The notes beneath the pieces were generated by a model, which saw only the letters and a program-made list of their open reading frames with translations, ran no database searches and was not told the DNA's origin. Position numbers and translations under genes: made by a program. Of a DNA stretch of 64,000 bases, positions 62,457 through 64,000 are shown piece after piece (position 1 is the first letter of the stretch; each line of letters opens with the position of its first letter). Origin of the DNA: an uncultured Sunxiuqinia sp. (GTDB taxonomy: Bacteria; Bacteroidota; Bacteroidia; Bacteroidales; Prolixibacteraceae); assembly GCF_963678245.1 (NCBI RefSeq), contig NZ_OY782770.1:62001-126000 (forward strand), given 5' to 3'.

Positions 62457-62801
62457 TTAATTTCCATCTCCAAAATCGATATCTGTTTCTTCATCCTGTG
62501 CGGGTCCATATTCTCCCTCTTTAACTTTTTGTTGAACCACACATTTAATGGTCTTGTAACTTTTACTTTTATCCAATGCAATTGGAACTGTGGATGAAAA
62601 AATTGGGTTTTCCGGACCGTTCATCAACTGGGTTACAGTCGAAAGAGTAACAACAACTCCCCAATACTTTTTTGTTTCAGTTGAAATTTCCTGTTGCTCA
62701 ATACTGGCAATGGTTTGGTCCTGTGAGCAATTCAATACAACCCCAAGTTCATAATGGCTTGATGCTTTGCTTAAACTCAGGTAAGGTTTGTAACTTTTCA
62801 T
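62457..62801 (-). CDS. Small protein with acidic tail shared with its neighbour
   Basis: A 114-residue protein of unknown family. There is no signal peptide or membrane helix. The body is beta-like with Thr/Val-rich segments (YWGVVVTLSTVTQL, YKTIKCVVQQKV) and two cysteines. The C-terminus QDEETDIDFGDGN matches the tail of the downstream small protein, and the underlying DNA is 32/33 identical (62466-62498 and 62215-62247). It is 55 bp upstream of that gene, so both are probably on one transcript. It is divergent from the lipoprotein-LytTR gene. Coding is supported by the shared tail; the role is unknown. Confidence 0.65.
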   Translation of the reverse strand: MKSYKPYLSLSKASSHYELGVVLNCSQDQTIASIEQQEISTETKKYWGVVVTLSTVTQLMNGPENPIFSSTVPIALDKSKSYKTIKCVVQQKVKEGEYGPAQDEETDIDFGDGN

Positions 62802-63266
62802 GTTTTTTTTTTAGTTTGTACAATCTCCATACTTCTTTATTATAGTGTGCCAACGCATGAAACTCCGAAGTCCCCCTCCTGTATGAGCGAAATTTTGATC
62901 ATGGTCGTTTCATCATTATAAAATAGCATGGGTTTTTCAAATGTAACAATTATTTCACTAAGTATCTTTCATTCATCCCAATAAAAAAAACTCAACAACA
63001 CACACATAAATCACTTGCAACAAGTTAATTAAATTGATATAAGTTGCATGAATTATCAATTTTGTTTGAGTTTTAAAAATGATGATTTATTACGGTTATT
63101 CAAAACAAAAGCACAACATCTACTTCATCTGTTCGAGAGATAAAAGTTCGTAGCAATTTAGCGATAAGTCCGCTTAACGAGAAAATGGCTCCGGTTAACG
63201 AATAAATTTTAAAATGAGCAAAAGTTCTTGTTTTCTTGAACCGCAATCCAATAAAAATCAAACATC
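62802..63266. other. Divergent regulatory region of the small genes and the LytTR gene
   Basis: 465 bp without a credible gene. It contains the 21-bp-spaced direct repeats at 63169-63201 facing the LytTR gene. I do not see a TAnnTTTG box in either direction. Confidence 0.5.
63169..63201 (+). promoter_or_regulatory. Pair of 12-bp direct repeats, candidate LytTR operator
   Basis: TCCGCTTAACGA (63169-63180) and TCCGGTTAACGA (63190-63201) differ at one base and are exactly 21 bp apart from start to start. LytTR proteins bind direct repeats about 21 bp (two helical turns) apart. The site ends 65 bp before the ATG of the gene that encodes a LytTR domain, suggesting autoregulation. Confidence 0.6.
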
Positions 63267-64000
63267 ATGAAATCAAAAAACTTATATCTGATTGCATTAC
63301 TTTTTGTATTTTTATCCGGGTGTATTGTTTTCTCATTCTATCCGCCGTACACAGATGATGATCTCTATGCAAATGATTTGCTACTTGGAGAATGGTTAGA
63401 CTCGGACTCTTCCGTCTGGCAATTTGAGTTTAACTACAAAGGAGAACATAAAGCAGAAAACCTGGATAGCACAGCCTATATTCTTCGAATCAAAGAAGAT
63501 GATAAACTATCAAAAAAATCTTTTCTGGTGCATTTAATCAAATTAGATGGCTATTATTTTCTCGATTTCTACCTGGATGATTATTTCGACAAAGATCCCG
63601 ATCTCTTCGATTGGCATGCTCTGCCGGTTCATAGTTTTGCTAAACTGGAACTGGAAAACGGTGAAGCCAAAATTAATTGGTTTGATCCGGAATGGTTGGA
63701 AGATTTAATCGAACAAAATCGAATTCGCATTCATCATGAAAATAATGGCGAGAATAAATTGCTCTATGTTGAAGCCATGGACGATTACATCCGGCTCATT
63801 TTAACCACCCAAACACTGACCGTTTACGACCGGCTGGCTGCCTTTTTAGAAAAACTTCCTTCAACCGGATTTTGTCAAATTCATAAATCATACTTGGTTG
63901 CCCTCAAGCACATTGAAGGCAATCGATTAAAAATTGCCGACACTTTTCTGCCCGTGAGCAAACGTTTTAAAGCCAGATTGATTGAGCACCTGAATACTTA
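63267..64000 (+). CDS. Lipoprotein joined to a LytTR DNA-binding domain (runs to the window edge)
   Basis: The frame is open from ATG 63267 for 244 codons to the last base, where TA suggests a stop just outside. The N-terminus MKSKNLYLIALLFVFLSGC is a clear lipoprotein signal with Cys19 in the lipobox. Residues 34-155 form a domain with GEWLDSDSSVWQFEF and LDGYYFLDFYLDDYF that looks like a lipocalin-type cell-envelope lipoprotein. From about 163 to 243 the sequence is a complete LytTR domain: LLYVEAMDDYIRLIL, LEKLPSTGFCQIHKSYLVAL and FLPVSKRFKARLIEHL. I checked the frame base by base; there is no stop or shift between the parts. A periplasmic lipoprotein carrying a DNA-binding domain is topologically puzzling. 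Confidence 0.8.
   Translation, partial: MKSKNLYLIALLFVFLSGCIVFSFYPPYTDDDLYANDLLLGEWLDSDSSVWQFEFNYKGEHKAENLDSTAYILRIKEDDKLSKKSFLVHLIKLDGYYFLDFYLDDYFDKDPDLFDWHALPVHSFAKLELENGEAKINWFDPEWLEDLIEQNRIRIHHENNGENKLLYVEAMDDYIRLILTTQTLTVYDRLAAFLEKLPSTGFCQIHKSYLVALKHIEGNRLKIADTFLPVSKRFKARLIEHLNT

Follow-up and report, generated by a model that had tools for sequence, protein, structure and literature searches.

The open reading frame that joins a lipoprotein to a LytTR domain at the end of the window (the whole 64,000-nucleotide stretch of DNA analysed here) is almost certainly a chimera. An ancestral operon encoding a lipoprotein, a LytS-type kinase and a LytTR regulator would have undergone a deletion of 1570 bp that left this frame behind, with slipped mispairing at short imperfect repeats as the most likely cause. 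The operon is intact in relatives, both breakpoints can be located, the kinase and the receiver domain are absent, and both fused halves are truncated. Most likely, the fusion is what remains of a disrupted regulatory operon, as opposed to a novel type of regulator. An earlier note on this DNA had listed a chimera, formed when a deletion joined two genes, as the first of three possibilities, and the relatives indeed carry separate genes with extra sequence between them. The same arrangement was what that note had named as refuting its observation. The features of the locus, all on the plus strand, are the following.

63169..63205, plus strand: LytTR-type double repeat, conserved, with TTAACGA-N14-TTAACGA at 63174-63201 and a period of 21 bp.
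63231..63238, plus strand: position of the Bacteroidetes-type -7 element, degenerate here (TTTTCTTG; TTTTTTTG in Sunxiuqinia indica).
63267..63755, plus strand: 5' portion of the lipoprotein gene, encoding residues 1-163 of a protein that has about 200 in relatives, from the family alignment and the S. indica comparison.
63752..63764, plus strand: deletion joint in an imperfect direct repeat, from a three-way comparison; codon 164 is composite.
63759..64000, plus strand: 3' remnant of the response regulator gene, a truncated LytTR domain (chimera residues 165-244), from the S. indica comparison and Pfam LytTR.

The fusion is one unbroken frame of 244 amino acids (63267-64001, plus strand), as had been claimed; it was completed with contig sequence beyond the window, and its stop codon, TAA, has its final base at 64001, one base outside the window. 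The N-terminus reads as a signal peptide with the motif LSGC (in FLSGC) at residues 16-19, ending in Cys19, which by its pattern we take to be the lipobox that the earlier note had pointed out. An in-frame TTG at codon 165 was considered as a start codon inside the LytTR part and was rejected; the start of the domain would be missing anyway.

In a protein search of the window's own genome and 60 relatives, the nearest relative found was Sunxiuqinia indica (G004). Its locus encodes a 200-aa lipoprotein, a 344-aa LytS-type kinase and a 227-aa LytTR response regulator, each gene overlapping the next by 4 bp. The kinase was assigned to Pfam His_kinase (PF06580) with 88.4 bits, and the regulator scored above the cut-off for Response_reg (PF00072, 70.8 bits) and LytTR (PF04397, 66.8 bits). 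Downstream of the operon lie a convergent aminotransferase-like gene and then an HtpG-like gene, names that we assumed from the appearance of the sequences. The window and S. indica align with a single gap, and their DNA is 92% identical over the 588 bp before the joint and 93% identical over the 2759 bp after it; upstream of about 63176 the two diverge (77% over 849 columns, 67% over 343). At the protein level, residues 1-163 of the fusion share 95% identity with the first 166 residues of the S. indica lipoprotein, and the LytTR part is 90% identical to residues 143-227 of the regulator. In the protein search, the S. indica matches to the lipoprotein half (93%) and the LytTR half (90%) lie about 1.5 kb apart.

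The window genome lacks 1570 bp that run in S. indica from lipoprotein codon 164 to regulator codon 144. This comparison places the junction at residue 163/164 and replaces the earlier estimate of a site near residue 160. In S. indica, the lipoprotein gene reads GAATATATTGCTT at the breakpoint and the regulator gene GAATGAATTGCTT, which are alike at 11 of 13 bp. The joint of the window reads GAATAAATTGCTC; one of the differing bases is lipoprotein-like and the next one regulator-like. When 20,000 random joints were drawn between both S. indica genes, 11 spanned an equally good 13-bp stretch, and a deletion between short direct repeats would be the simplest reading of the joint. The starts of the two outer genes are 1630 bp apart in S. 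indica (3 x 543 + 1) and lie in different frames. As 1570 is 3 x 523 + 1, the deletion joins the outer genes in one frame, an outcome for which the chance would be roughly one in three.

The deletion cost the lipoprotein its last 37 residues (164-200) and with them 6 of the 12 invariant columns of the 18-member alignment A1 (T167, A168, L173, Q174, F176 and A186, each in 18 of 18 proteins). No kinase orthologue was found elsewhere in the window genome, whose assembly is 97.8% complete. The best-scoring matches there, 36% and 38% identical, are probably paralogues, because S. indica also carries 36% and 38% matches besides its real kinase. Likewise, no orthologue of the regulator or its receiver was found elsewhere in the assembly, where the three best full-length regulators are 36-40% identical. 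The same genome has two LytTR matches with internal stops, on contig C5 (141249-141546) and contig C8 (202182-202484), which may be further decayed LytTR genes.

The protein search with the fusion, run on these 61 genomes, gave matches in 54. Among the matches listed, only that of the window genome covers both the start of the lipoprotein and the LytTR part in one piece. Some matches are weak (about 26-34% identity, frame length about 228-292 aa), start at residues 66-159 and span the joint; most of these were taken for ordinary LytTR regulators. The neighbourhood of the gene was then surveyed in 37 genomes besides the window's, 18 in a first set and 19 new ones in a second. The second set comprised 30 loci, 11 of them already seen, and reached at most 1.5 kb past the lipoprotein gene, so that the regulator was visible only in part. 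The results show the lipoprotein, kinase and regulator in this order in 30 of the 37 genomes, 19 of these 30 belonging to the genus g11. Six of the 37 carry the lipoprotein without kinase or regulator in the fetched stretch: G001, G003, G005 and G006 from the window's genus, and G007 and G028 from other genera of the family (loci L067, L068, L069, L071, L073 and L079). The fusion was absent from all 37 genomes whose neighbourhood was examined.

A further genome, G108 (L115, 1501-2780), has an intact lipoprotein gene, what by eye appears to be the start of a kinase, and a regulator that lacks about its first 29 residues and diverges before its end; apparently, judged from this arrangement, the same two-component system was deleted there independently. 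In G001, G003, G005, G006, G007, G028 and G108, the best-scoring kinase match elsewhere was 32-39% identical, G003 being only 71% complete. A profile search with A1 against 140 genomes of the family recovered the lipoprotein in 94, the window's own included. Among the profile matches above 150 bits, that of the window alone stops near position 169 with the frame running on to 248 aa. The match in G109 stops at position 151 in a frame of 159, and that in G095 is fragmented by stop codons; matches of 50-105 bits may represent a different subfamily. The complete operon was found within the family of the window genome and, outside it, in a single genome from another family of the order. Two loci, L082 (5445-6732) and L083 (5214-7174), have two nearby lipoprotein copies upstream of the kinase. 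In addition, a 114-aa protein encoded at 62457-62801 of the window (minus strand) resembles proteins encoded close to the lipoprotein gene in L066, L068, L071 and L073.

Profile A1 matches the fusion over positions 1-169 of 202 (241 bits), and the fusion thus has the signal and the conserved N-terminal and central part of the lipoprotein family and lacks the conserved C-terminal tail. Compared with S. indica, dN/dS was 0.078 for the lipoprotein part (residues 1-163) and 0.20 for the LytTR part; it was 0.066 for the aminotransferase-like gene and 0.054 for the first 180 codons of the HtpG-like gene. The excess in the LytTR part was not significant against the lipoprotein part (Fisher p=0.38), nor against the lipoprotein part together with the two neighbouring genes (p=0.095). 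The low value of the lipoprotein part fits an explanation that is compatible with the deletion, namely that the chimera keeps the lipoprotein function, with the lipoprotein half under selection and the LytTR remnant serving as a replacement tail. The six relatives in which the lipoprotein persists with no kinase or regulator behind it suggest that the protein is useful by itself, and they speak for this explanation as well. However, the dN/dS value combines the periods preceding and following the deletion, the missing tail is highly conserved, and the window protein carries L27P at a position occupied by Leu, Phe or Ile in the 18 other aligned proteins. We consider a retained function unlikely, with an appreciable chance left to it.

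In the fusion, LytTR was the only Pfam family above its cut-off (residues 164-242, 50.1 bits against a cut-off of 22.6); Pfam detected no receiver domain in the chimera, and the S. indica regulator has one. The domain had been described as complete, which proved incorrect, since the match covers profile positions 10-97 of 98, three residues found in 12 of 12 aligned intact operon regulators are missing, and the Gly of the GDY motif, present in the same 12 of 12, is Asp. In the intact S. indica regulator the LytTR match begins at profile position 2. The Gly to Asp change by itself is no proof of a loss of function, because more distant LytTR proteins vary there: of the ten in alignment A3, seven have Gly and the others Ala, Glu and Asp.

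The remaining two possibilities of the earlier note, a protein that is cleaved or not exported and a membrane-tethered regulator, found no support, given the absence of the fusion from the other genomes and the further changes in the LytTR part. It is very improbable that the chimera is a functional new LytTR regulator, tethered to the membrane or released by proteolysis, and continues to control the operon promoter. In favour of this reading, the frame has stayed open, the upstream double repeat is retained, one of the distant LytTR proteins also has Asp at the Gly position, and the C-terminal part of an AlphaFold model of the fusion is LytTR-like, with 3d6w_B as the best Foldseek match (E 9.6e-4). 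Nevertheless, that model is of low confidence (mean pLDDT 60.7, pTM 0.38), the start of the domain is gone together with three further residues, and the lipoprotein signal would direct the remnant to the far side of the inner membrane. It is unlikely that a LytTR regulator works outside the cytoplasm here. Likewise very improbable is an assembly artefact, with 1570 bp of an intact operon passed over by the assembler: the joint does lie within a short repeat and is supported by one assembly, but it sits well within a 1.5-Mb contig of an assembly of 11 contigs, an imperfect repeat of 12-13 bp would be too short to mislead an assembler, the missing kinase and receiver do not turn up elsewhere in the assembly, and the additional changes seen in the LytTR remnant are consistent with genuine decay.

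The repeats that the earlier note had reported at 63169-63201 exist (TCCGCTTAACGA and TCCGGTTAACGA, 21 bp apart), and the double repeat at 63169..63205 is a probable binding site of the lost regulator. We searched for CGA-N18-CGA within 150 bp upstream of the lipoprotein start. The site precedes 28 of the 30 operons with kinase and regulator (exceptions, L072 and L082), and it is also found upstream in G108 (1 of 1) and in the window. Only one of the six lipoprotein-only loci has it (L071, within a low-complexity tandem region); in another, L067, two CGA are 23 bp apart, which is not the N18 site. The site occurs in 0.9% of shuffled upstream regions, and other spacings of 17-26 bp were found before at most 2 of the 30 operons. 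Its association with the presence of kinase and regulator gave a Fisher p of 3e-4, a value overstated by the dominance of one genus in the sample.

The first CGA sits 83-95 bp upstream of the start codon. Exactly 29 bp past the second CGA, 24 of the 30 site-bearing loci (28 operons, G108 and the window) have a degenerate form of TAnnTTTG, which we take to be the Bacteroidetes -7 consensus. The strict form is found at that spot in 19 of 30 loci, nearly all from g11, and the window is one of the six without TAnnTTTG there. A scan for sigma-70-type promoters gave 3 sites against a shuffle mean of 4.1, none of which fell in the interval from the repeats to the start codon. A 31-base version of the site, searched without mismatch, occurs once each in G000 (the window genome), G004 and G002, always before the lipoprotein operon; the operon site of G008 does not fit this version. 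With one mismatch allowed, there were 1, 3, 2 and 1 matches in G000, G004, G002 and G008, against 1, 0, 4 and 0 in the backward control, and the genome-wide count is not clearly above this control in the four genomes. The counts may give a weak hint of a narrow regulon in three genomes.

LytTR repeats are 9 bp long, and the 21-bp period of the operon site corresponds to a 9-bp repeat and a 12-bp gap. In the accessible part of a published account, LytTR repeats lie mostly 12 bp apart, with a minority at 11 or 13 bp, and just upstream of the promoter (PMC6193735). Given this spacing and placement, the geometry of the operon site fits that of an activator site. The presence and position of the site, and its rarity in genomes without the regulator, argue for autoactivation in the relatives, and the double repeat probably served autoregulation by the lost regulator. 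Binding of the LytTR part to the upstream repeats, which the earlier note had proposed to test, would fit the intact operons and probably no longer applies to the chimera.

From these observations, we infer the following course of events. In intact relatives, the kinase and regulator would activate their own operon through the double repeat and so make the lipoprotein, which would be a main output of the system. With the deletion, the ancestral operon would have lost the kinase and most of the regulator, and the two-component system would be dead in the window genome. The fusion, if made, would be exported as a lipoprotein whose LytTR remnant would lie outside the cytoplasm, either inert or degraded. 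The open frame and the intact upstream repeat count against this course of events, as an operon dead for long would have had no need to retain either. A deletion origin removes the apparent paradox of a DNA-binding domain outside the cytoplasm, and the intact parent operon is of more interest than the chimera. It is conserved and has a well-placed upstream site, its two-component part was lost in several relatives that kept the lipoprotein, and loci without the regulator mostly lack the site as well, a natural hint at the regulator's role. Tentatively, the parent operon may be a closed envelope circuit, in which the LytS/LytTR pair targets solely or mainly its own promoter and the lipoprotein is both the output and a feedback signal to the kinase; we hold this to be possible and rather doubtful. 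If true, the circuit would be undescribed, and the window genome and the lipoprotein-only relatives would be natural knock-outs of the controller.

The lipoprotein itself fell below every Pfam cut-off in a search with 18 A1 members (best E 0.0028, each listed family being matched by one member), and the S. indica protein, the one searched against NCBIfam, was below every cut-off there. Profile A1 had no match among solved structures, and Foldseek with the lipoprotein part of the fusion model gave insignificant matches only, such as the lipocalin-like 4qrl (E 0.12). An AlphaFold model of the intact S. indica lipoprotein, built with three sequences, was poor (mean pLDDT 43.4). No description of a lipoprotein-LytS-LytTR operon was found in the literature searched (titles and abstract openings), which is no proof that the operon is undescribed.

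Among known systems, chimeric genes formed by deletion at short direct repeats are an established kind. The window gene resembles them in its single-gap deletion, the short imperfect repeat at the joint, the truncation of both partners and the separate intact genes in relatives, and nothing essential differs. The parent operon can be compared with the LytS/LytTR two-component systems, of which BtsSR, AgrCA and AlgZR are examples. The S. indica kinase and regulator share the His_kinase, Response_reg and LytTR domains with these, and the gap between the operon repeats is the commonest one in the accessible part of PMC6193735. In contrast to them, the parent operon begins with a lipoprotein below the Pfam and NCBIfam cut-offs, and the window genome has lost the kinase and receiver and carries the LytTR remnant as a fusion with this lipoprotein. 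The LytTR regulatory systems called LRS (HdrRM and BrsRM), as described in the same accessible part, pair a LytTR regulator with a membrane inhibitor (PMC6193735). The parent operon is similar to them as a probable autoregulatory operon that combines a LytTR protein with an envelope protein and has direct repeats just upstream of the promoter. However, LRS use their membrane inhibitor instead of a kinase, whereas the S. indica locus encodes a histidine kinase as well as a receiver, and the parent operon is a two-component system with kinase, receiver and lipoprotein.
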